NCBI RefSeq assembly: GCF_000512205.2 | Contig: NZ_CP006644.1 | Span: 2,226,520 to 2,290,519 of the forward strand | Length of the DNA: 64,000 nt | Reading direction: 5' to 3' | From: Sphingomonas sanxanigenens DSM 19645 = NX02 | GTDB lineage: Bacteria; Pseudomonadota; Alphaproteobacteria; Sphingomonadales; Sphingomonadaceae | Part shown: positions 9,824 through 39,711 of the stretch, piece by piece | Layout: every line of letters begins with the position of its first letter | Numbering within the stretch: the first letter of the stretch is position 1 | Made by a program: the position numbers and the translations under genes | Notes under the pieces: generated by a model | What the model was told of the DNA's origin: nothing | What the model saw: the letters and a program-made list of their open reading frames with translations, nothing else | Database searches by the model: none

Positions 9824-10363
9824 ATGGCGCAGGACATTACGCCGCAAGAGGCGATCAGGCGGTTAGAGCAACCCTTCGGCGATCGCGTGGGCCTGTCGCT
9901 CGTGCGGGGATTCGCGTTATCTGCTGCGTTGTTGGTGCCAGGCATTGCCCGAACACAGGACCTTCAGCCGTGGGCAGGCTACACCACACAGGGCTTGGCC
10001 GAGACCCGCGCACCTTGGCAGTTCAGGTGGGACGATCCCGAGAATGAATGGCTGAGGATCAGCACCGACAGCCAGAAGGCAACTTGGTTTCTCCAACTGG
10101 CCAGCGATCTAAGGGCCAAGGATCAACCCAAGAGGGCACGTCGGGTGTGGCTCAAGATCGACTACAGCAAGCAGGTAACCGAACGAGCACGCGAGGCCAA
10201 GGCGTTGTGGGTCGTGGATTGCAACAGCCAGACGTTCACGGTGCGTAACATGACCTGGTATGCGCCCAACGGCGTTGTCGAGGAGACCCGTTCCTATCCG
10301 ACCACGGACATCATCCCGGAGAGCATGGCAGCGACAATCTCGCGCCGGGTCTGCTCTCAGTGA
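9824..10363 (+). CDS. Envelope protein with surface-adhesin-E-like domain
   Basis: 179 residues from an ATG with a good GAGGAA ribosome site. A 21-residue polar leader precedes an Arg-flanked hydrophobic stretch (about 26-42) ending GIARTQD, a signal peptide or signal anchor; an in-frame GTG at 9887 would give a classical signal peptide but has no ribosome site. The C-terminal 75 residues (RVWLKIDYSK, VDCNSQTFTV, YPTTDIIPES) match the pattern of the surface-adhesin protein E domain, with two Cys likely forming a disulfide. First gene of the accessory run, overlapping the next by four bases. GC is lower than in flanking genes. Confidence 0.65.
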   Translation: MAQDITPQEAIRRLEQPFGDRVGLSLVRGFALSAALLVPGIARTQDLQPWAGYTTQGLAETRAPWQFRWDDPENEWLRISTDSQKATWFLQLASDLRAKDQPKRARRVWLKIDYSKQVTERAREAKALWVVDCNSQTFTVRNMTWYAPNGVVEETRSYPTTDIIPESMAATISRRVCSQ

Positions 10364-11076
10364 GCGACGATGCTGACGACTTTATCGACCGCATGTTCGC
10401 GCCGGGGGGACCGACTGCACCAAAAGCCGAGCCACGCCCGCAACGTCGGATGCGGGCAATCGTTAGCAATCACCACGTCGATTACGCTCACAACGATGTC
10501 GCCAATGCGGCCTGGTTCTTCAAAGAGCGGCTGACCAAGGCGCTCCAAGACAAGGAGCGCAGCGATGGCATCTTCCTGGATATGATGGCGATGGCGACCA
10601 TGACGGCGTTCGCGCTGGAGGGTTACGTCAATTTCGTTGGGATGACGCTGATCGAGCGCGGGCATGAAGGTGACAGTGCCAAGGGTGCTTGGCTAAGGTT
10701 TGAGAAAAAGTCTCCGCGAGATAAGATCAAGGTTATCCGCCGTCTCACCGGGGAAAAAATCGACTGGAACAAGCGGCCCTACAGAACCGTCCGTGACCTG
10801 ATGGGCCTGCGTAACATGCTTGCTCATCCCAAAGCCCACCGCGCCGAGCAAAGGGAGTTTGAAGCGGTCGGAACCGAGGACGAACTAAAGAAGATGCTGC
10901 GCGATTACCGGCCGGAGTACGAGCGTCAGCTGACATGGGATTTCGTGACGATGGCATACGAGGACGTGGAGGCAATCTGGAACGAACTGTTGGGCTTTGC
11001 CAAGATCGAGGCCCATGAGACGTGGAGCGCTGGGATGCAGGGCCTGGAATTTCTTGAACACGTCGATGAGGAATAG
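10360..11076 (+). CDS. HEPN-domain protein, candidate ribonuclease or toxin
   Basis: 238 residues from a GTG overlapping the upstream stop. A helical region (about 45-175) contains LRNMLAHPK, a HEPN-type R-x4-H motif (Arg151, His156) that in active HEPN proteins forms the metal-independent RNase site. The preceding helices (FLDMMAMATMTAFALEGYVNF) fit the first HEPN helices. Asn after the Arg is typical of active HEPN RNases. Many such proteins belong to toxin-antitoxin, abortive-infection or restriction loci. No obvious antitoxin is adjacent. Family assignment is from the motif and helical pattern only. Confidence 0.6.
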   Translation: MSDDADDFIDRMFAPGGPTAPKAEPRPQRRMRAIVSNHHVDYAHNDVANAAWFFKERLTKALQDKERSDGIFLDMMAMATMTAFALEGYVNFVGMTLIERGHEGDSAKGAWLRFEKKSPRDKIKVIRRLTGEKIDWNKRPYRTVRDLMGLRNMLAHPKAHRAEQREFEAVGTEDELKKMLRDYRPEYERQLTWDFVTMAYEDVEAIWNELLGFAKIEAHETWSAGMQGLEFLEHVDEE

Positions 11077-11081
11077 GGGCG

Positions 11082-12023
11082 ATGATGTTTCCGACACTTC
11101 CTGAGGACGTTATTGACGCGGTTCGTGCGGCGTTCGCTGACGCTAACGATCGGGTGTCTCACCTTCTCATGCGGCAGCCGGCGATGCACGAAGAGGGGCT
11201 CGATTTTCACTTGGTGTCTAAGTTGGACGAGGTGGGCGCACAGGTTCTGCCGTCTGGAACAGCCTTGGTTATCGAAACCCATTGGCTGGGTGGTCGGCGA
11301 CATTACGGGCGCTGGGAAATCTCCGACATAGCCATCGTGATTGCGGTGCGCGTCCAGGGTGGGCTAATCGCCAGGAAGGTTGCGTTGCTTCAAACGAAGC
11401 GGCTCTACTCCAAAGAAATACCGGTCGAGCACACCGATAGGAGCGACTACGAAATCGGCATTGGCCGTCTCGTCGATCGCACCGAAAAGGCGAAACCGCT
11501 GTTCGTCCAGCGCAATTTTTCGTTCTCCGACAAATGCGTTTACGGTGCGCTATCGGCGGGCAGTGAGCAGGTTCAGCGCATCGACGATTATGTCGATGAG
11601 CGCGGTATTCCCGTCTATTACGCGCTCTACAATCCACCTAAGGTACCAGCTAACGGACTTCATCCCCCAACAACCGGCTACGCGCCGCTCGATGAAAACG
11701 AGGTAGGGTGCCGCGTTCTCAAGCGGGAGGAAATCCACGGCGTCCTGGATGATCTACCTGCCGGTTCAACACCCTCGTTCGGCGACATGCAGAACAGCAA
11801 GCGCAAAACGACATTTGATCCCTTCGCGGCTCACGGTTGGCGGCTCGAAACGTTCGTCGCAGATGAGGTCATGCGATGCCGAGAAGGCCGTCTGTTTGAG
11901 GACGCACAGGATGATGTCCTGGCTTCGCTGCTCTACCGTCGGTCAGCGCCAATCACGGCTGCGGTGGTTATGACGGTTGACCTTCCCGAGAGTGAATTAG
12001 CTTACGACTATGAAGAGTCTTGA
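11082..12023 (+). CDS. Unknown protein with possible PD-(D/E)xK-like (QxK) nuclease core
   Basis: 313 residues, five bases after the HEPN gene. The region WEISDIAIVI (Asp82) followed about 20 residues later by ALLQTKR (Gln104-x-Lys106) resembles the D...(E/Q)xK active site of restriction-endonuclease-like folds, where Gln replaces Glu in Mrr-type enzymes. Glu37 or Glu38 could supply the upstream acidic residue. The remaining sequence has no recognisable domain. The fold is an inference; the protein could instead be a structural partner of the HEPN protein. Confidence 0.5.
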   Translation: MMFPTLPEDVIDAVRAAFADANDRVSHLLMRQPAMHEEGLDFHLVSKLDEVGAQVLPSGTALVIETHWLGGRRHYGRWEISDIAIVIAVRVQGGLIARKVALLQTKRLYSKEIPVEHTDRSDYEIGIGRLVDRTEKAKPLFVQRNFSFSDKCVYGALSAGSEQVQRIDDYVDERGIPVYYALYNPPKVPANGLHPPTTGYAPLDENEVGCRVLKREEIHGVLDDLPAGSTPSFGDMQNSKRKTTFDPFAAHGWRLETFVADEVMRCREGRLFEDAQDDVLASLLYRRSAPITAAVVMTVDLPESELAYDYEES

Positions 12024-12268
12024 CCATCTTAGTCGTGGAACTTAGTCGGTTGCTCGCTTGCTTGGCTGAAAGTCGAGACGCGATGGTCGCGACGGGTCGG
12101 GTTCTCTCAGTCCGTTGACAAGCGGCCAGGCTATGACCAACTTACGCGAACGGGCTTCTCCACGGAGGTGGGGCAGTCATCATCTGGAGTCACCTGTTCT
12201 ATCAAGTTTGGATGCATAGCTTCCTCCACATCATTGTTGAAAGCCTACTGGAGAAGGGGAGAAAGCCT

Positions 12269-12373
12269 GTGAATACATTCATTGATACCACTAAGGCCGC
12301 TTATTGTTCGTCCACTCGTTGGATTAGAAAATTCGCTGTTCCTGCTCTAGTTGCTCTGACTGCAACAACATAA
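12269..12373 (+). CDS. Possible 34-residue peptide gene
   Basis: A GTG-initiated frame of 34 codons with a GGGGAGA ribosome site upstream. The peptide has a polar first half, a WIRK basic patch and a hydrophobic tail (FAVPALVALTATT), somewhat like short membrane-active peptides. The stop codon TAA is the first base pair of a strong hairpin, so transcription would end exactly at the end of this frame. AT-rich compared with the genome. It could be a peptide toxin, a leader peptide, or chance within an untranslated RNA. Confidence 0.35.
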   Translation: MNTFIDTTKAAYCSSTRWIRKFAVPALVALTATT

Positions 12374-12397
12374 AGGCCCGCCGTTTGGCGGGCCTTT
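12372..12397 (+). terminator. Strong hairpin terminator ending the accessory run
   Basis: Perfect 11-base arms (AAAGGCCCGCC and GGCGGGCCTTT) around a four-base loop. The A and T ends make it a candidate bidirectional terminator. Confidence 0.75.
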
Positions 12398-12713
12398 CAC
12401 GTTCTGCCTTTGGTTGTTCGCTGATAATGATCTGGATGCTCTAGGGCGAGACGCCGAAGGAGACCAACAGCCCCTTCTTGGCGTCCGCGAAAGCTGCGCG
12501 GCTTTGAGTTTGGGCGGCGCGGTGCAAAGGATGGTCGCGCGGGGCGCGTGGGTTTGACAGCTTTGCGCCAGAAGCCGCCCTTCGTCGCCTGACGCTTGAA
12601 CGACGGCTTCGTCCCAAAAATAGCACCCATGTGCGTTCTGAAGCGCCGCAGGCCGCGCTGCGCAAAGTCCGCGACCGATCGCCGCTTACCGCCGCGTCTT
12701 CGATTTTGGAAAA
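12398..12713. other. Non-genic stretch beside the tRNA, probably a dispersed element
   Basis: A minus-strand frame (12397-12630) reads GTKPSFKRQATKGGFWRKAV and then a Pro/Arg-rich tail. I recall very similar predicted peptides recurring in many sphingomonad genomes, which suggests a repeated DNA element that happens to be open, not a protein gene. No ribosome site or domain supports translation. Confidence 0.45.
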
Positions 12714-12790
12714 TGGTGCCCCGGGAGAGACTCGAACTCCCGACCTGCGGTTTAGGAAACCGTTGCTCTGTCCTGCTGAGCTACCGGGGC
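12714..12790 (-). tRNA. tRNA-Arg (anticodon CCT)
   Basis: 77 bases including an encoded CCA. The 7-base acceptor stem GCCCCGG pairs fully, the D arm has AGCAGGACA in its loop, the anticodon loop TTCCTAA gives CCT (reads AGG), and the T arm is GGGAG-TTCGAGT-CTCCC-like. Its 3' end faces the accessory patch at lower coordinates, the side where integrative elements usually insert. Confidence 0.95.
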
Positions 12791-32317: not shown

Positions 32318-33292
32318 TCATGCCCCCGGCACGCCGAGCTGGCGCGCGGACTGGCGCAGCCGGTTCTGCGCGGCGCTGTCGCTGCCGAACGCGCCCAGCC
32401 CCGATTGCAGCGCGGCGCCGGCGCGATCGGGCTGGTTGAGCACCATCCGCGACCGCATCAGCCGGATCCAGCCGGCCTCGTCGCGCGGATTGGCCTTCAG
32501 CTTCGCTTCGAGGCCCTCGACCATCTGGTTGACCATCGCATCCTGCTGTCCCGGCGGCAGCTGCGTCGCCGCCGCCATCTGGTCGCGCGAAGGCCCGGGA
32601 ATGCCGTCGGTCGCGGTGGAGGGCAGGGGTGCTGCGGGGCGCGTCGCCGCCAGTCGCGCGGAAACGTCGATCTTGGCTTCGGCCGCCACCTCGGTGATGC
32701 GCTGGCGCAGCCCGGCTTCCCAGTCCGCGCCGGCGGGGGTGTCGCCGAGCACGGCGAGCCACGCATCGATCGCGCCCTTCTTGTCGTCGCGATAATATCT
32801 GTCGACGCCCTGATAATAACGCGCGCGCGCATCCTTGGGATCGCGCTTCAGCGCTTCGGCGAATGCTGCCAGCGCCTCGGGCGGAACCTTGTCGCCTGCC
32901 GAATAGACCAGCGCCTCGCCCTTCGCCGACCAGTTCTCGACATTGTCGGGCGCGAGCTTGGTCGCGCGGTCATAGGCAGTGGCCGCCTCCGCATAGCGAT
33001 TGGTGACCATGAAGGACCGGCCGAGCAGGCTCCACCCCGCGACATCCTCGGGGTTCTGCTTCAACCGGGCCTCGAGCTGGCCGATCATCGAATCGACATC
33101 GCCGACCGGAGCAGCCGGGCTCGCCGCTGCGCCGGGGGGCGGCGCGGTCGTCGGCGAATCGCCGCCGCGGCTGCGCGCGATCGCGATTCCCACCGCCACC
33201 AATGCGACCAGCGCCGCCAGGATGAGCGCGATTCTGCCGAACTTCGCGGTCCCGGCGCCTGCCCCGGCCGTCGCTTCCGATGCCATCCTCAT
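32318..33292 (-). CDS. TPR protein, CcmI/CycH-like
   Basis: 324 residues (start 33292, or 33286 two codons later). One N-terminal membrane helix (about 17-40) is followed by at least three TPR units beginning VDSMIGQLEARLKQNPEDVAGW, as in the periplasmic part of cytochrome c biogenesis protein CcmI. The rest of the ccm operon is absent here. It is divergent from the electron-transfer cluster that encodes a ten-heme cytochrome c, which makes a heme-maturation role tempting but unproven. Confidence 0.75.
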   Translation of the reverse strand: MRMASEATAGAGAGTAKFGRIALILAALVALVAVGIAIARSRGGDSPTTAPPPGAAASPAAPVGDVDSMIGQLEARLKQNPEDVAGWSLLGRSFMVTNRYAEAATAYDRATKLAPDNVENWSAKGEALVYSAGDKVPPEALAAFAEALKRDPKDARARYYQGVDRYYRDDKKGAIDAWLAVLGDTPAGADWEAGLRQRITEVAAEAKIDVSARLAATRPAAPLPSTATDGIPGPSRDQMAAATQLPPGQQDAMVNQMVEGLEAKLKANPRDEAGWIRLMRSRMVLNQPDRAGAALQSGLGAFGSDSAAQNRLRQSARQLGVPGA

Positions 33293-33435: not shown

Positions 33436-35937
33436 GTGACCGACCTCTACCGGATCGCCATCGTTGGCTCCGGGCCTGCGGGGCTCAGCGCGGCTGCGCG
33501 TGCGGCGCAGCTCGGCATCAGCCATGTGCTGCTCGAAAAGACCGATCATCTTTCGGATACGATCTACAAATACCAGCTCGGCAAGCATGTGATGGCGACG
33601 CCGTCCCAGCTCGTCCTGCGCTCCGACATGGATTTCGACGCCGGCAAGCGCGAGACGGTGCTGGGAACCTGGGAACGCCAGGCGGCCGAAAACCGCATCC
33701 ATGTGAAATATGATGCCGAAGTCACCGCGATCACCGGCAGCAAGGGGGATTTCGCCCTCAAGCTGAAGAGTGGCGAGACGGTGCGCGCCGAGCAGGTCGT
33801 TCTCGGCATCGGCACGCAGGGCAATCCCAATCTGATGCGCGTGCCCGGCGGCGATCTGCCGCACGTGCAATATACGCTCGACAACCCCAAGGCCTATGTC
33901 GACGAACATATCAGCGTGATCGGCGCCGGCGATGCCGGGATCGAGAATGCGCTGGGCCTGGCGGACGATCCCGCGCAGCAGAATGTCGTGACGATCGTCA
34001 ACCGGTCGATGGAATTCAGCACCGCCAAGGATGCCAACATCAAGGCGCTGCTGGCGGCCGAAGCCGCGGGGCGCGTGACCGTCCTTCGCGGCACGACGCC
34101 GCAGAAGGTGGAGCCCGGCTGGGTCACTTACGATACCCGCGACGGCGAACGGCGGGTCCGCTGCGACCGGATCATCGCGCGCATGGGATCGGCGCCGCCG
34201 CGCCGGTTCGTCGAATTGTGCGGTGCCGCGTTCGAGGAGCGCGACGGCAAGAAGGAACGCGTCGCCGGCACGGGCATCCGCTTCACGAGCGACGAACGCG
34301 TATCCTATCCCGAACTCTCGCGGACGTTCGAATCGACGGTTCCCGGCATCTATGTGATCGGCGCGCTGGCAGGCTATCCGCTGATCAAGCACTGCATGAA
34401 CCAGGGCTATGACGTCGTCGAGTTCATCAATGGCAATATGTCGCTGAAGCCTGCCGACGAGCCGATCCTGATCGAAAAGTTCAAGGAGATGCCCGGTTCG
34501 CGCTCCGTCGACGAGTGGCTGGAATATCTCCGCACCCGCATCAAGATCTTCAACGGCATGTCGCAGCTGCAGATGCGCGAGTTCATGCTCGACAGCGAGG
34601 CGCGGACCTATCGCGCGGGCGAACTGGTCTTCGAACGCAACACCCCCGGATCCTCGCTGTTCGGCATCGCCGATGGCGCGGTCGACATCGAGGTGAACCC
34701 GACCGATCCCGACATCAAGGTGACGGTCGGCAAGGGGTCGATCTTCGGCGAGGTCGGGTTGATTTCGGGCCGCCGCCGCGGCGCCACCGTGCGCGCCAAG
34801 ATGGGCACGATCGCGGTCGAGGTGTCGCGTTCGGCGGCGCTGAAGCTGCAATCGACCGTGCCCTCGGCCAAGCAGGCGATCGCGCGGATTTCCACCGAGC
34901 GCCAGTTGCTGCAATTGTTCGGATCGGGCGTGACCGCCGACGATCTCGACGACGTGATCGCGACCTCGGAGATCATCACGATCCCGGCGGGCAAGGCGGT
35001 GATCAACGAGGGGGAGGATGGCAAGGACGTCTTCGTCATCCGATCGGGCTCGATGATCGTCGAGAAGATGATCGGCGGCAAGCCGGTGTTCCTCTCCTAC
35101 CTGCCCGCCGGATCCTATGTCGGCGAGATGTCGCTGATCGCGGGCGGGCGGCGCACGGCCACGGTGAAAGCGGCGGTGAAGGCGGAGGTCATCAAGCTGC
35201 AGGGCGACATGTTCGAGGCGCTGCTGCGCCGCAAGCCCGACCTGCTGGCCAAGGCCAAGCGCGACATGGCCGCGCGCCAGGACGTCAACGCCTATATCGA
35301 GGCCTCGAAGGACAGTTTCTCGGGCGCGGTCGACCTCTATTCGTCCGTCTCCAACTTCCTGATCGGCGAGGGCATCGGCGAGGCGACCGATGTGCTGCTG
35401 ATCGACGAGAATCTGTGCGTCGGCTGCGACAATTGCGAAAAGGCCTGCGCGGACAGCCATGACGGCCTGAGCCGCCTCGATCGTGAGGCGGGCAAGACCT
35501 ATGCGCACCTCCACGTGCCGACGAGTTGCCGGCATTGCGAGCATCCGCACTGCATGGCCGATTGCCCGCCCAACGCGCTGCACCGCGGGCAGGACGGCGA
35601 AGTCTATATCGACGACAGCTGCATCGGCTGCGGCAACTGCCAGCGCAACTGCCCCTATGGCGTGATACGGATGGACAGCACGCCGCCACCCAAGCCGTCA
35701 TTGCTCAGCTGGCTGTTCCTCGGCACCGGCCCCGGGCCCGGCGAGCCGAGCAAGGCTTGGTCCTACAAGCATTCCGATCCGGCGGCCGAAAAGCCCAAGA
35801 AGGCGATCAAGTGCGACATGTGCGCCGGCATAACCGGTGGCCCCGCATGCGTGCGCGCCTGTCCGACCGGCGCCGCGATCCGGGTTGCGCCCGACGATTT
35901 TCTCTCGATCGCACGGCTGCAGCGGGAAAGCAGCTGA
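33436..35937 (+). CDS. Flavoprotein reductase fused to two cNMP-binding domains and four [4Fe-4S] sites
   Basis: 833 residues in three blocks. Residues 1-340: thioredoxin-reductase-like FAD/NAD(P) domain with GSGPAG at 11-16 and a second Rossmann GAGDAG at 163-168, closing with VPGIYVIGALAGYPLIKH. The CxxC disulfide of true thioredoxin reductases is absent, as in YpdA/Bdr. Residues about 385-640: two cyclic-nucleotide-binding domains; cassette 1 is FGEVGLISGRRRGATVRA (437-454), cassette 2 has GE at 563-564 and RTA at 573-575, the canonical cAMP contact residues. Residues 661-810: sixteen Cys in four groups (CVGCDNC, CRHCEHPHC, CIGCGNC, CDMCAG), a DmsB/NrfC-like ferredoxin. Leads the co-oriented redox cluster. 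Inferred cytoplasmic electron input module gated by cyclic nucleotide. Confidence 0.85.
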   Translation: MTDLYRIAIVGSGPAGLSAAARAAQLGISHVLLEKTDHLSDTIYKYQLGKHVMATPSQLVLRSDMDFDAGKRETVLGTWERQAAENRIHVKYDAEVTAITGSKGDFALKLKSGETVRAEQVVLGIGTQGNPNLMRVPGGDLPHVQYTLDNPKAYVDEHISVIGAGDAGIENALGLADDPAQQNVVTIVNRSMEFSTAKDANIKALLAAEAAGRVTVLRGTTPQKVEPGWVTYDTRDGERRVRCDRIIARMGSAPPRRFVELCGAAFEERDGKKERVAGTGIRFTSDERVSYPELSRTFESTVPGIYVIGALAGYPLIKHCMNQGYDVVEFINGNMSLKPADEPILIEKFKEMPGSRSVDEWLEYLRTRIKIFNGMSQLQMREFMLDSEARTYRAGELVFERNTPGSSLFGIADGAVDIEVNPTDPDIKVTVGKGSIFGEVGLISGRRRGATVRAKMGTIAVEVSRSAALKLQSTVPSAKQAIARISTERQLLQLFGSGVTADDLDDVIATSEIITIPAGKAVINEGEDGKDVFVIRSGSMIVEKMIGGKPVFLSYLPAGSYVGEMSLIAGGRRTATVKAAVKAEVIKLQGDMFEALLRRKPDLLAKAKRDMAARQDVNAYIEASKDSFSGAVDLYSSVSNFLIGEGIGEATDVLLIDENLCVGCDNCEKACADSHDGLSRLDREAGKTYAHLHVPTSCRHCEHPHCMADCPPNALHRGQDGEVYIDDSCIGCGNCQRNCPYGVIRMDSTPPPKPSLLSWLFLGTGPGPGEPSKAWSYKHSDPAAEKPKKAIKCDMCAGITGGPACVRACPTGAAIRVAPDDFLSIARLQRESS

Positions 35938-36029
35938 TGGCGAACGGGGGGCAGGCAGTGACGGAACGACCGAGCATGAGGCGGGCCGGCGCTGGCACGC
36001 CATCTCCGCTATCGTGCCGCAGGGGGTGA
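35937..36029 (+). CDS. Possible 30-residue ORF between the reductase and cytochrome b genes
   Basis: Its ATG overlaps the reductase stop (TGATG) and its stop lies five bases before the next start, inside that gene's ribosome site region (AGGGGGTGAACTG). The peptide is polar, Gly/Arg-rich, with no recognisable feature. It may only pass ribosomes from one gene to the next. Confidence 0.3.
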   Translation: MANGGQAVTERPSMRRAGAGTPSPLSCRRG

Positions 36030-36033
36030 ACTG

Positions 36034-36933
36034 ATGGCATCCAAGCCCGACCGTATGCCGCGCGCCATGCGCGCCGCGCCGAAAAGGGCGCGCGCCCAAT
36101 CGCTGCACGACGGCTTCATCCGGCACCGGAATTTTCTATGGGCGAAGATCGCGACCGGCCTGTGCGTGCTGGTGATCGCGGTCTATTTCCTGATCGACGT
36201 CACGCCGCGGCACAATGGTGGCAGCTGGTATGGCTATACGCTCGGCACCGTCGGCGTGCTGATGATCCTGTGGCTGACGATGCTGGGCGTGCGCAAGCGC
36301 GCGATGACGGCGGGGCGATGGTCGCTGAAGGCGTGGACGTCTGCGCACATCTATCTCGGGCTCAGCCTGATCGTCATCGGCACGCTGCACACCGGCTTTC
36401 AGCTCGGCTGGAACGTTCACACCCTGGCATGGGCGCTGATGATGCTCGTCATCCTCTCGGGCCTGTTCGGCATCGGCGCCTATGCGGTTCTGCCCGAACG
36501 GCTGAGCACCAACCGCGACGAAATGACCGAGCCGCAGATGCTCGACGCGCTCAAGTCGATCGACCGCCAGCTTTACGATGCCGCGCAACCGCTCGAGCAG
36601 CGCCACGCGGCGCTCGTTCAGATGTCGCTCGACGATGATCCGCTCAAGGGCGGCATCCTGACCCGCCTCGGCGGCCGATATCCGCGCTGTGCCACGCGCA
36701 GCGCGCATATCGAACTGCGCCGGGACACCGCCTACCGCGCAAGGATTGCGGACGATCCCCTGGAGAAGATCGATGCCCTGTTCGAACGCAAGCAGGCGAT
36801 GCTCGCGCGAATGCGCAGGCACGCCAAGCTCAAGGCGCTGCTGGAGATCTGGCTCTACGTCCACGTGCCGATGACCTTCGCACTGCTCGCCGCGCTCTCA
36901 GCGCACATCGTCAGCGTCTTCTTCTACTGGTGA
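36034..36933 (+). CDS. Integral membrane cytochrome b-like protein, likely diheme
   Basis: 299 residues with about five membrane helices (roughly 36-56, 66-86, 103-123, 130-153, 276-297). His105 and His119 on one helix, and His277 and His291 on another, are each exactly 14 residues apart (H-x13-H), the spacing with which cytochrome bc1-type proteins ligate two stacked b hemes across the bilayer. The loop 155-270 is hydrophilic. Lies between the iron-sulfur reductase and the decaheme gene, so it probably carries electrons across the membrane. Sequence family not recognised by name. Confidence 0.72.
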   Translation: MASKPDRMPRAMRAAPKRARAQSLHDGFIRHRNFLWAKIATGLCVLVIAVYFLIDVTPRHNGGSWYGYTLGTVGVLMILWLTMLGVRKRAMTAGRWSLKAWTSAHIYLGLSLIVIGTLHTGFQLGWNVHTLAWALMMLVILSGLFGIGAYAVLPERLSTNRDEMTEPQMLDALKSIDRQLYDAAQPLEQRHAALVQMSLDDDPLKGGILTRLGGRYPRCATRSAHIELRRDTAYRARIADDPLEKIDALFERKQAMLARMRRHAKLKALLEIWLYVHVPMTFALLAALSAHIVSVFFYW

Positions 36934-36940
36934 GGCCCGC

Positions 36941-38749
36941 TTGACCTTTGTCGTCCGCCAGATTTCGCGCACCGCCGATGGGCGGGAGATCGTCCGCGAC
37001 GCGTTGGTCGAAGGCGATTCGCTCGTCATCGGCCGTGGCGCAGAGAATGGCATCCCGCTGCCCGATCTTGCGGTCGACCGGCAGCATGCCCGCGTCACCG
37101 CGTTGGGCGGCCAGCGGCTGCTGATCGAATCGATCGGCGGCCTGGGCTTCGAGATCGAAGGCCGGCCGACGATGCGCGAGGAGGTCGATGCCGGGCGCGG
37201 CGCCGAGTTGCGCTTCGGCAGCCACCGGCTGACTCTCTCGAGCGTGGACGGGCGCCCGCTGTTCGCGGTGGAGCGGATCGAGGCCGTCTCCGACTCGGCC
37301 GAGGATCGTGACCGCTCGAAGGTGTTCACGCTGCAGTCGCTTCTGCCCGGCAAGCGGTTGAGCGCCTATGGCTATATCCTCCTGGTGCTGGCGGTGTTCC
37401 TCGCCTGGCCGATCTACAGCTACGTCACCTACAAGGGCGTCGCCGAGCGCCCGAAGACCTTCCACGGCGACAAAATGTGGGAATCCGGCAAGCTCTCGCT
37501 CGCGCACAAGAGCCTCGAGAAGGACTGTCAGGCGTGCCACGTCAATGCGTTCGAATCGGTGCGGGACGAGTCATGCATCGCCTGCCATGAGGACACGCAC
37601 GACCACGCGCCGGCGGCGCGGCTGGCGAACGCGAAGGCCCCCCCGGGCCTGGGCGGGCAGATACAGCATCAGTTCAAGGTGGCATTCAACGTTCCCGAGG
37701 GGAGCTGTGTCGAATGTCACACCGAACATGAGGGCGCTGGGCCTATGCAGCCAACGGCGCAGAAATTCTGCGCCGACTGCCACGGCAGCCTCAATACGCG
37801 CCTGAAGGACACGAAGCTCTTGAACGCAGCGGATTTCGGCACCGCGCATCCCGAATTCCACCCCGCGGTGGTGGTGCAGCCGGGTGACAAGCCGCTGCTG
37901 CGCCGGGTGTCGCTGGCCGATGCGCCCCGCGAGAATAACGGGCTGAAGTTCCCGCACGCGCTGCACATGTCGAAGACCGGGGGCGTCGCCCGGATGGGGC
38001 AGACGATGGCCGGCGAATTCGGCTTCGGCGCGTCTCTCCAGTGCAAGGACTGCCACAAGGCCACGCCGGATGGCGTGCGCTTCCGCCCGGTCGAAATGGA
38101 GCAGAGCTGCGGCATGTGCCACAGTCTGGCGTTCGATTCGATCGGCGGGACGGTGCGCACCCTGAGGCATGGCGAACCGCAGCAGGTCGCCGCCGATCTC
38201 CGCGCGCTGTATCGCTCGACGGGCCCCGTGCGCCCCATCAATCTCGGCGGCCAGGCCCGCCGCCTGCCCGGTGATTACCAGGCCAGCCGCACCCAGAGCA
38301 TCTTCGCTTCCGCCGTGCTGCAGCGTCCGGCGCGCGCGGAAGACGCGATACGCGCCGTTTTCTCGCCCGGTGGCGCCTGCTACGACTGCCACGTGGTGAC
38401 GCAGGCCCGCGGCCCGAGCGTCGTCGGGTTCAATGTGGGCGATGTCGTGCAGCCGATGCGCTACATGCAGAAGGGCTGGTTCGACCATGAAGCGCACAAG
38501 GCCGAGAAATGCGAGAGCTGCCACACCAAGGCGACGGCTTCGCGCAGCGCCGGCGATCTGCTGCTGCCCGACATCAAATCCTGCCGGACCTGCCATGGCG
38601 GGGAGCAGGCGCGCGCCGAGGTGCCGTCGAGCTGCGCGATGTGCCACGATTATCACGCCGACGATGGTGCGCCATGGGTGAGCACGTTGACCCGCGACAG
38701 CCGCAAGGGGCGGAGGCAGCCGCGCGCCGTTCCGGTCGCGCGCCGCTGA
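36941..38749 (+). CDS. FHA-domain, membrane-anchored ten-heme cytochrome c
   Basis: 602 residues from a TTG with GAGG five bases upstream. Residues 1-105: FHA domain with VIGRGAENGIPL (Gly31-Arg32) and DRQHARV (Asp46 where Ser of the SxxH motif is usual). One membrane helix at about 143-163 (YGYILLVLAVFLAWPIYSY). The remainder, periplasmic by inference, carries ten CxxCH heme motifs: 196, 212, 256 and 277, then CKDCH, CGMCH, CYDCH, CESCH, CRTCH and CAMCH. It has many extra His for axial ligation. FHA domains bind phosphothreonine peptides, so a cytoplasmic phosphorylation signal may be read by a periplasmic multiheme wire. Start is six bases after the cytochrome b gene. Confidence 0.85.
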   Translation: MTFVVRQISRTADGREIVRDALVEGDSLVIGRGAENGIPLPDLAVDRQHARVTALGGQRLLIESIGGLGFEIEGRPTMREEVDAGRGAELRFGSHRLTLSSVDGRPLFAVERIEAVSDSAEDRDRSKVFTLQSLLPGKRLSAYGYILLVLAVFLAWPIYSYVTYKGVAERPKTFHGDKMWESGKLSLAHKSLEKDCQACHVNAFESVRDESCIACHEDTHDHAPAARLANAKAPPGLGGQIQHQFKVAFNVPEGSCVECHTEHEGAGPMQPTAQKFCADCHGSLNTRLKDTKLLNAADFGTAHPEFHPAVVVQPGDKPLLRRVSLADAPRENNGLKFPHALHMSKTGGVARMGQTMAGEFGFGASLQCKDCHKATPDGVRFRPVEMEQSCGMCHSLAFDSIGGTVRTLRHGEPQQVAADLRALYRSTGPVRPINLGGQARRLPGDYQASRTQSIFASAVLQRPARAEDAIRAVFSPGGACYDCHVVTQARGPSVVGFNVGDVVQPMRYMQKGWFDHEAHKAEKCESCHTKATASRSAGDLLLPDIKSCRTCHGGEQARAEVPSSCAMCHDYHADDGAPWVSTLTRDSRKGRRQPRAVPVARR

Positions 38750-38862
38750 CCGGATCGATGAAGGAATCGGTGTTCAACCCCGATCCCTTGACGGCGAGCC
38801 GGATCCACGAATCGCATTGGGCGGTGGGTATGCAGACGCCCGCGCGCAGGAAGGCCGGAGCG

Positions 38863-39711
38863 GTGCTGATCGCGCAGATCACCGACATCCATCTCGGGTT
38901 CGATCCCGACAATCCCGGGGAGTTCAACCGGCAGAGGCTGGATCGCACCTTCGCTGCATTGCTGGCCATGTCGCCCTTGCCCGATCTCGTTCTCGCAACG
39001 GGCGACCTCGTCGATCGCGGCGACCTGGACAGCTATCTGCGTCTGCGCGAGGCGTTCGACGCCTTTCCGATCCCGATCCTGTCCTGCCTCGGTAATCATG
39101 ACGTCCGGGAGAATTTCGGTGCCGTCTTCGGGGAGATCGCGCCGGTCGACGGTTTCTACCAGTATGAGCATGACGCCGGATCGCTGCGGCTGATCGTGAT
39201 CGATACGCTGGAAGAAGGGCGCCATGGCGGCGCATTCTGCGAAACGCGCGCCGCGTGGCTGGCGGCACGGCTGGCGGAACGTCCGGCGGATCCGGTGGCG
39301 ATCATCATGCATCATCCGCCGGTCGATGTCGGCATCGCCTGGATGGCGACGCACGAGGAAGAGCCGTGGGTGCAGCGCTTCGCCGCGGCGATCGCGGGGC
39401 AGCCGCAGGTGCGCGCGGTGATCTGCGGGCATCTGCACCGGCCGGTGACGGTCGGCTGGCGCGGCACGACGGTGTCGGTCTGCCCGTCGACTGCGCCGCA
39501 GGTCGCGCTCGACCTCGCGCCGATCGATCCGGACCGACCCGACGAGCGCCCGATGATCATCGCCGATCCGCCGGCCTATGCGCTGCACCTGTGGAATGGC
39601 GAGACGCTGGTCACCCATTACGACACGGTGGAATCGCACCCCGTGCTCGCCGAGTTCGACGCGCGCATGCAGCCGCTCGTCCGCAGCCTGCTCGCCGAAC
39701 GCCCGAGCTGA
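38863..39711 (+). CDS. cpdA: CpdA-like calcineurin-family phosphodiesterase
   Basis: 282 residues from GTG 38863, picked for the AGGAAGG eight bases upstream and the near-universal start just before LIAQITDIHLG; ATG 38830 or 38758 would add 11 or 35 residues. Metal-binding motifs in order: TDIHLG, ATGDLVDRG, CLGNHDVRE, MHHPPVD and CGHLHRP, the class III cyclic-nucleotide phosphodiesterase pattern. Length is close to E. coli CpdA (275). Position directly after a gene whose product has two cAMP-type domains suggests it removes their ligand. Confidence 0.85.
   Translation: MLIAQITDIHLGFDPDNPGEFNRQRLDRTFAALLAMSPLPDLVLATGDLVDRGDLDSYLRLREAFDAFPIPILSCLGNHDVRENFGAVFGEIAPVDGFYQYEHDAGSLRLIVIDTLEEGRHGGAFCETRAAWLAARLAERPADPVAIIMHHPPVDVGIAWMATHEEEPWVQRFAAAIAGQPQVRAVICGHLHRPVTVGWRGTTVSVCPSTAPQVALDLAPIDPDRPDERPMIIADPPAYALHLWNGETLVTHYDTVESHPVLAEFDARMQPLVRSLLAERPS

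Follow-up and report, generated by a model that had tools for sequence, protein, structure and literature searches.

The plus strand of a 64,000-nucleotide stretch of the 6.58-Mb genome of Sphingomonas sanxanigenens DSM 19645 = NX02 (NZ_CP006644.1, positions 2,226,520 to 2,290,519; hereafter the window) carries, at 33436-39711, four co-oriented genes, here called A, B, C and D. On balance, and without great security, it seems probable from their sequences that the products of A, B and C would make up the inner-membrane part of an electron conduit of the PCC4 kind that spans the envelope, is switched by a cyclic nucleotide and leads electrons from NAD(P)H to the outside. A (33436..35937, 833 amino acids) encodes an NAD(P)H/FAD oxidoreductase extended by tandem domains of the cyclic nucleotide monophosphate (cNMP)-binding family and by a four-cluster ferredoxin; B (36034..36933, 299 amino acids) a putative diheme cytochrome b with five transmembrane (TM) helices, an inner membrane protein of the PCC4 type; C (36941..38749, 602 amino acids, TTG start) an FHA-like cytoplasmic domain, one TM helix and a periplasmic ten-heme cytochrome c; and D (38758..39711, 317 amino acids) a class III cyclic-nucleotide phosphodiesterase, CpdA/SpdA/Rv0805-like, with its metal-binding motifs intact. 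The full open reading frame (ORF) of D has 400 amino acids and overlaps C, its likely start being the ATG at 38758. With these starts the intergenic gaps are 96 bp (A-B), 7 bp (B-C) and 8 bp (C-D), the gene caller having placed the start of B at 36055 instead of 36034. An earlier note on this DNA, made from the letters alone, had described four co-oriented genes with the first three nearly touching, which is what the ORFs give.

The proteins of the proposed inner-membrane module

In profile searches A matched Pyr_redox_3 (E 1.8e-26), cNMP_binding in two stretches (4.7e-28) and Fer4 domains, while its match to PF13247 reached 44.4 bits against a cutoff of 26.2. Along the plus strand, a YpdA/TrxR-like FAD and NAD(P) Rossmann domain (33436..34440), with GSGPAG at 11-16 and GAGDAG at 163-168, is followed by two cNMP-binding domains (34588..34875, phosphate-binding cassette G438 E439 ... 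R448; 34957..35250, cassette G563 E564 ... R573) and by a HycB/FdhB/NrfC-type ferredoxin domain with 16 Cys (35398..35883, four [4Fe-4S]), so that the cNMP domains sit between the flavin part and the ferredoxin part. Conservation was read from alignments of 109 A, 103 B and 99 C proteins, the window's own included. The far set among them (28 A, 24 B and 24 C) includes two G346 stretches and several families with more than one genome, and also takes in L164 and L165, both close to the window's group. The G, E and R of the first cassette are kept in 81/81 near members (window included) and in 28/28 far ones; in the second, G and R are kept to the same extent and E564 in 80/81 near and 28/28 far members, the single exception carrying Ala in place of Glu564. 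Both domains thus have the Glu and Arg of a phosphate-binding cassette, by which functional cNMP binding would be predicted. Moreover, the tandem region (391-606) aligns in one stretch with the regulatory subunit of PKA (whole-sequence E 6.5e-19). The 16 Cys are invariant in all 109 A proteins, which argues for four [4Fe-4S] clusters; a flavin reductase with two cNMP domains, as first proposed, is retained, with the cluster count amended to four. The predicted model of A is poor in this ferredoxin part, the predicted local distance difference test score (pLDDT) being <50 over 639-754 and 783-833. A disulfide reductase of the YpdA/TrxR type was considered for A and rejected, since the flavin domain is without a CxxC disulfide and Cys320 is Ala in 21 of the 28 far relatives; the YpdA model scored 117.9 bits against a cutoff of 339.9.

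B carries the motifs W101xxxH105x13H119, S142GxxG146 and W273xxxH277x13H291, and five helices are indicated both by the structure model (m422c176430bb) and by five hydropathy peaks. Five His (105, 119, 129, 277 and 291) are conserved in near and far relatives. The histidine spacing of a diheme cytochrome b, already noticed in the earlier note, was recovered as two WX3HX13H motifs in 102/103 members, L043 having one, and SGXXG, sought anywhere in the protein, was present in 97/103, the S142-G146 of the window included. PF01292 (cytochrome b561) was matched at E 0.01 or better by 63/79 members. In structural comparison the model of B was aligned with cytochrome b6 (4h0l: Z 7.3, root-mean-square deviation 5.1, 137 residues aligned) and cytochrome b561 (4o6y: Z 6.8, deviation 3.5, 133 aligned), values to be read against unrelated helical proteins, which scored up to 11.2. 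From its motifs and helices B is probably a diheme cytochrome b, to be called putative, and its predicted orientation is taken from its charged loops.

C matched the Cytochrome_C7 and c3 families and no PDB entry by sequence. Its single TM helix (37358..37414), the one hydropathy peak, at residue 140, separates the FHA-like domain (36998..37225) from ten CxxCH hemes (37505..38656), which alignment shows to be kept in 96/99 members; of the rest, one is truncated and two have nine. Since maturation places c-type hemes in the periplasm, those of C must be periplasmic. Ten further His (189, 222, 263, 303, 339, 342, 410, 516, 519 and 572), which no fewer than 99% of the near and 92% of the far members keep, are candidate distal ligands, one per heme, which suggests that the hemes are electron carriers rather than a catalytic heme. 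The FHA-like domain is borderline by profile score (20.6 bits against a cutoff of 20.7). Its Gly-Arg is kept in 99/99 members. In FHA domains the phosphothreonine (pThr) is held by a pocket to which a Ser and an Asn belong. The pThr-contacting position 46 of C is Ser in only 6/99, and no column of the Asn region (64-71) has Asn in more than 6/99. The pocket being degenerate, the sensing of a phosphoprotein by this domain, which the earlier note had put forward, found no support, while the ten hemes and the anchor helix of C stood.

D matched Metallophos, the top curated models being SpdA and CpdA, both below cut-off (133.9 against 400 and 78.8 against 225), and its nearest PDB entry is Rv0805 (E 2e-18). 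The metal-binding motifs D-x-H, GD, GNHD, HH and GHxH are invariant across 72 aligned members, and the assignment as a CpdA-like phosphodiesterase is upheld.

Linkage and distribution of the four genes

A search of named genomes for relatives of A (tblastn, E 1e-3) gave at least 586 stretches, from the best 80 of which the linkage was counted. The order A-B-C on one strand was found in 76/76 loci with sequence available, the remaining four ending at most 142 bp from the last match, and the B-C gap in relatives has a median of about 10 bp. The match to D starts at most 315 bp after that to C in 68 of the 72 loci that are long enough, and 2.8 kb away in L077; among these 72 it was not found in L053, L054 and L070. 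The search for a conserved four-gene order, which had been suggested as a check, thus came out in its favour, and a chance grouping of unrelated genes can be ruled out by the conserved linkage. The closest named relatives among the 80 belong to Sphingomonas and other Sphingomonadales, nearly all being sphingomonads by title; in Sphingobium herbicidovorans MH, where A is B6S01_RS18455, the annotated product names are generic.

In three genome samples A was present in 14/59 relatives, 26/289 genomes of the class and 15/398 of the phylum, G043 and G049 having been left out of the count for a match confined to the first 273 residues of A at 32-34%. The order A-B-C was kept in most of the 28 wider stretches (class and phylum, from 27 genomes). 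D was found in two of them, those nearest the window's group, and looks like an addition of the Sphingomonadales to A-B-C. In two genomes of one genus (L141 and L143) A and B are fused into one ORF, which supports a direct complex of the two proteins.

The putative outer-membrane modules

Four further genes, P1-P4, form an operon at C1:2311622-2321378 (L174:7623-17379) of the same genome, outside the window and on the strand opposite to A-D. The five heme motifs of the cytochrome P1, four CX2CH and one CX4CH, were found unchanged across 33 proteins. P2 is an HbpS-like protein, of a family which we take to bind heme or small molecules. P3, of about 600 amino acids, has no Pfam match and low hydropathy after its leader, and its C-terminal residue is Tyr or Phe in 34/34 complete proteins; these traits point to an outer-membrane barrel. 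P4 combines ten hemes with an LVIVD propeller; the impression that it is two genes in some genomes was discarded, the pieces lying at the ends of sequence stretches. PDB sequence searches gave no match for P3 or P4. The four genes of the window, proposed at first as a whole circuit, would be the inner half of it, the outer half lying elsewhere in the genome.

The two halves are joined in many relatives. A P3 match was found in 16 of the 28 wider stretches around A. Conversely, in nine of the 20 stretches centred on P3 the A-B-C-D genes adjoin P1-P4, either convergently or in one direction, and the remainder consist of nine with P genes only, plus L244 and L245. In L247 the order is A-B-C-D-P1-P2-P3-P4, all in the same direction; L244 reads B-C-P1-gdh-P2-P3-P4 on one strand (gdh, glutamate dehydrogenase), and one 14.3-kb contig of a relative B-C-P2-P3-P4-A-P1, also on one strand. 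In L245 A-B-C, D, a cyclase and P4-P3-P2 occur with other genes between them, and there is no P1 in the stretch. P3 was found in 15/59 relatives, 20/289 class and 12/398 phylum genomes, with A in 14, 20 and 12 of those. By hand tally over the three samples, 40/41 genomes with P3 have A, the exception, G022, being 67% complete, and 40/49 with A have P3. Thirteen plasmid records have P3; A is present in twelve, all from Sphingobium and closely alike, and the thirteenth is from Sphingopyxis indica.

Beside A-B-C in L147 and L150, where P3 is missing, another putative barrel of 469-499 amino acids, a five-heme cytochrome and homologues of P1 were found. Neither this barrel nor the five-heme protein shows a detectable likeness to P3 or P4. 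The L150 barrel found no match in the window's genome at E 1e-15, nor did the five-heme protein of L150 at E 0.001, in a search without a positive control. The alternative barrel occurs in 24/289 class genomes (E 1e-15), 17 of them strong (E under 1e-120); six of the 17 have A, and so has one (G065) of the seven weaker ones. It accounts for five of the six class genomes that have A without P3 (G110, G118, G163, G178 and G315), standing beside A in two; in the remaining one, G083, C is followed by P2 at a contig end. One barrel or the other is thus present in 25/26 class genomes with A. From these sequences, A-B-C appears to be paired, as an inner module, with outer modules that are unrelated to one another.

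A possible cyclic-nucleotide circuit

Class III cyclases (PF00211) were found in 14/14 of the relatives with A and in 11/45 of the others; compared within the same family, the figures are 14/14 and 3/21. The 14 genomes with A hold 34 cyclase hits, of which eight, in eight genomes, lie at most 10 kb from A or P3, about 0.5 being expected. In L237 and L238 CHASE2-cyclases stand one gene from P1, and by profile hits a cyclase is present in 7/20 of the P3 stretches. Moreover, a membrane protein with a cNMP domain lies beside P1 in four genomes, namely that of the window (L174), L235, L239 and L249; the one of the window (L174:17569-18261, 230 amino acids) is, we presume, Popeye-like in build. Taken together, the conserved pockets of A, the phosphodiesterase, and the co-occurrence and adjacency of cyclases support cNMP control of A, as the earlier note had supposed, and make the genomic case that a messenger may gate the route unusually strong.

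Between the cyclase and P1 of L233, L237, L238, L241 and L248 there is a protein of about 240 amino acids with a leader-like start, which for the L238 protein had no Pfam match.

Surroundings of the locus

The divergent neighbour of A, on the minus strand at 32318..33286, encodes a CcmH/CycH-like TPR protein of the cytochrome c maturation type, and 76/80 loci have such a gene upstream of A, in the opposite orientation. An NADP-type glutamate dehydrogenase gene recurs beside A-D or the P genes (L144, L232, L247 and L250, the family being confirmed for L144), and a glutamate dehydrogenase gene is upstream of A in 11/80 loci.

CRP-type sites (at most two mismatches) numbered five in the window against a shuffled mean of 10.1, with none upstream of A, and direct control of the locus by CRP was discarded on this count. 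Promoter and terminator scans gave results near chance level. Elsewhere in the window, a low G+C stretch at 10001-12790 (0.578 at 10001-12000 against about 0.68 around it), with a tRNA-Arg gene (12714-12790) near its end, is possibly an integrated element.

Relation to known conduits

According to the passages of He et al. (2017, PMC5566968) at hand, the putative PCC4 consists of a porin and cytochromes with 4, 5 and 10 hemes, with an inner membrane protein of five TM helices that bears two WX3HX13H motifs, stated to lie on TM3 and TM5, and SGXXG on TM4. An Fe-S (pfam13247) gene precedes the gene of this protein in Subgroup II, and Subgroup I is described there as being without an Fe-S gene altogether; in one species the two genes are annotated as one, which the authors suspected to be two (PMC5566968). 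As far as this description goes, A-B-C is the inner-membrane part of a PCC4-type system: A matches PF13247 and precedes B, B has the motifs and C has ten hemes, the likeness being to Subgroup II. The earlier note had known of no described system with this set, which was too strong, the inner set being already in the putative PCC4 (PMC5566968). By the same description, L147 and L150 look like PCC4 proper, the set having been compared by description and not with the published sequences, and the occurrence of their barrel without A would fit Subgroup I.

Other points of the description are matched less plainly. Beside the 4, 5 and 10 hemes of PCC4 there are here ten in C, four CX2CH and one CX4CH in P1, and ten in P4; PCC4 forms one gene cluster, and the present genes are contiguous in many relatives and split by about 45 kb in the genome of the window. 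Unlike PCC4 as described, the window's type has the HbpS-like P2, a ten-heme P4, the phosphodiesterase D and cyclases. P3 gave no hit to the barrels of the PCC4-like L147 and L150, a comparison that covered these two and no published PCC4 porin. New with respect to PCC4 are, on the Fe-S protein, a flavin domain and tandem cNMP domains, and further the links to phosphodiesterase and cyclase, a different outer module P2-P3-P4 and a wide distribution in sphingomonads. The main text of PMC5566968 contains no word beginning with "cyclic" or "Sphingo".

For the cytochromes tested, the TIGR03508 and TIGR03507 scores lie far below the cut-offs; on TIGR03508, the model for the DmsE-family decaheme cytochrome of MtrCAB/MtoAB, P1 reached 16.0 and P4 13.5 bits against 192.2, C not being among its matches. 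In general plan MtrCAB, MtoAB and PioAB are presumably alike, with an outer-membrane barrel and multiheme cytochromes fed from the inner membrane, but the inner module is here NAD(P)H-flavin-FeS-heme b and not CymA. Ferric reductases, NADPH oxidases and STEAP proteins we take to share cytosolic NAD(P)H, FAD and b hemes across the membrane, with HX13H on helices 3 and 5; they differ in that flavin and heme b are here on separate chains joined by four [4Fe-4S], in the ten-heme cytochrome c that follows, and in the cNMP domains. The regulatory subunit of PKA, with which the tandem domains of A align, inhibits a kinase, while those of A lie between a flavoprotein and a polyferredoxin. D is like CpdA, Rv0805 and SpdA, all three being matched, though for SpdA and CpdA under the equivalog cut-offs. 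As far as the passages of PMC6148476 go, the Ext and Omc conduits of Geobacter are to be called analogues in plan. No title or abstract opening among the literature matches listed describes an electron conduit with cNMP domains, PCC4 not having been searched by name; "cyclic nucleotide-binding" has no occurrence in the papers among the matches listed, and "PCC4" none in the text available of PMC10734462, PMC13322032 and PMC9769843.

Proposed mechanism and rival explanations

From gene content, conserved residues, linkage and co-occurrence we infer the electron steps, their direction, the gating and the acceptor as follows. The cytoplasmic A would oxidise NAD(P)H at its FAD and send the electrons through the four [4Fe-4S] clusters to B. 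There they would cross the membrane by way of two b hemes, one at H105/H277 towards the cytoplasm and the other at H119/H291 towards the periplasm. With its one helix as anchor, C would lead them into the periplasm over its ten c hemes, from where P1, with its five heme motifs, and then P3/P4 would hand them to an acceptor located either at the outer membrane or beyond it. A cyclic nucleotide (cAMP or cGMP), which a class III cyclase would make and D would destroy, may open or close the route by binding to the two cNMP domains of A, between the entry and the exit of the electrons. A path from FAD by way of [4Fe-4S] and heme b to periplasmic heme c had been foreseen in the earlier note, and it fits the invariant cofactor residues and the A-B fusion.

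Several observations weigh against this proposal. In the genome of the window the P1-P4 operon lies about 45 kb beyond D, and none of its three cyclases is near the locus; the cyclase co-occurrence, moreover, was sampled in the 59 relatives only. The co-occurrence of A and P3 reaches a Fisher p of 1e-12 to 7e-26 over the three samples, but this p ignores shared ancestry. Nine of the 49 genomes with A are without P3, the alternative barrel is without A in 11 of its 17 strong class genomes, so that an outer module can exist without A, and A stands without B or C in the stretches L142 and L151. The fused A-B of L141 and L143, which have C and no P match in the stretch, are an exception to the pairing with an outer module. 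As for B, the window's protein scores 23.3 bits with PF01292, under the cutoff of 30.1, and found no PDB match by sequence, nor by structure at E 0.001. Finally, in the passages of PMC5566968 at hand, the flow through PCC4 is drawn inward, to the quinone pool.

This last point leads to an inward flow, in which an external or periplasmic donor would feed P3/P4, P1, C and B and finally the quinone pool, A, instead of supplying the electrons, being either a branch to the side or a subunit for cNMP/redox control. Besides the drawing of He et al. and their Subgroup I without an Fe-S gene (PMC5566968), the barrels without A speak for it, part of the system being able to exist without A, and so does the resemblance of B, in its PF01292 matches, to quinone-active cytochromes b. 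Nevertheless, A, with intact FAD and NAD(P) motifs, four clusters and a fusion to B, is built like a reductase that passes electrons of NAD(P)H to heme, and it is kept with the window's type of outer module in nearly every genome with P3. Moreover, electrons would have to go uphill to reach NAD(P)+ from c hemes. Inward flow is thus considered unlikely, although a serious rival. If the direction is outward, as preferred here, the end of the route could still be narrower, P4 or P1 reducing one specific small molecule at the outer membrane with A-B-C as a private supply of NAD(P)H electrons. The propeller of P4, its partial match to ExtM of a selenite/tellurite operon (61.6 bits, cutoff 800) and the presumed ligands of the HbpS-like P2 would suit such a dedicated reductase, but the best stretch shared by P4 and ExtM is just 52 residues around heme motifs, and in L147 and L150 a different barrel and a five-heme cytochrome are put on the same A-B-C, which suits a general electron feed; we regard this possibility as quite improbable. 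Little credence is given to the view that D and the cyclases are unrelated bystanders, the cNMP domains of A having lost ligand binding or sensing something else, so that there would be no control by a messenger. It could draw on the failure to find D in 26/28 of the wider stretches and on the distance of the cyclases in the window's genome; against it stand the Glu and Arg kept in both cassettes of near and far relatives, the co-occurrence and adjacency of cyclases, and the tandem of the PKA regulatory kind.

Significance

Discussions of extracellular electron transfer usually centre on metal respirers and treat it as a question of gene expression. The Sphingomonadales are mostly aerobic. At least 80 genomes, nearly all from sphingomonads by title, carry an electron route with cyclic-nucleotide pockets on its first enzyme, and in several relatives a cyclase and a phosphodiesterase are found near it. 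It is possible, and put forward here only tentatively, that in this order a full messenger circuit, made up of cyclase, phosphodiesterase and tandem receptor domains, directly and allosterically gates an NAD(P)H-driven wire to the surface, with one inner module serving at least two unrelated outer modules. If true, a messenger would turn redox flow towards the surface on or off within seconds, and PCC4, a published cluster so far unassigned, would acquire a source of electrons as well as an input for its control.

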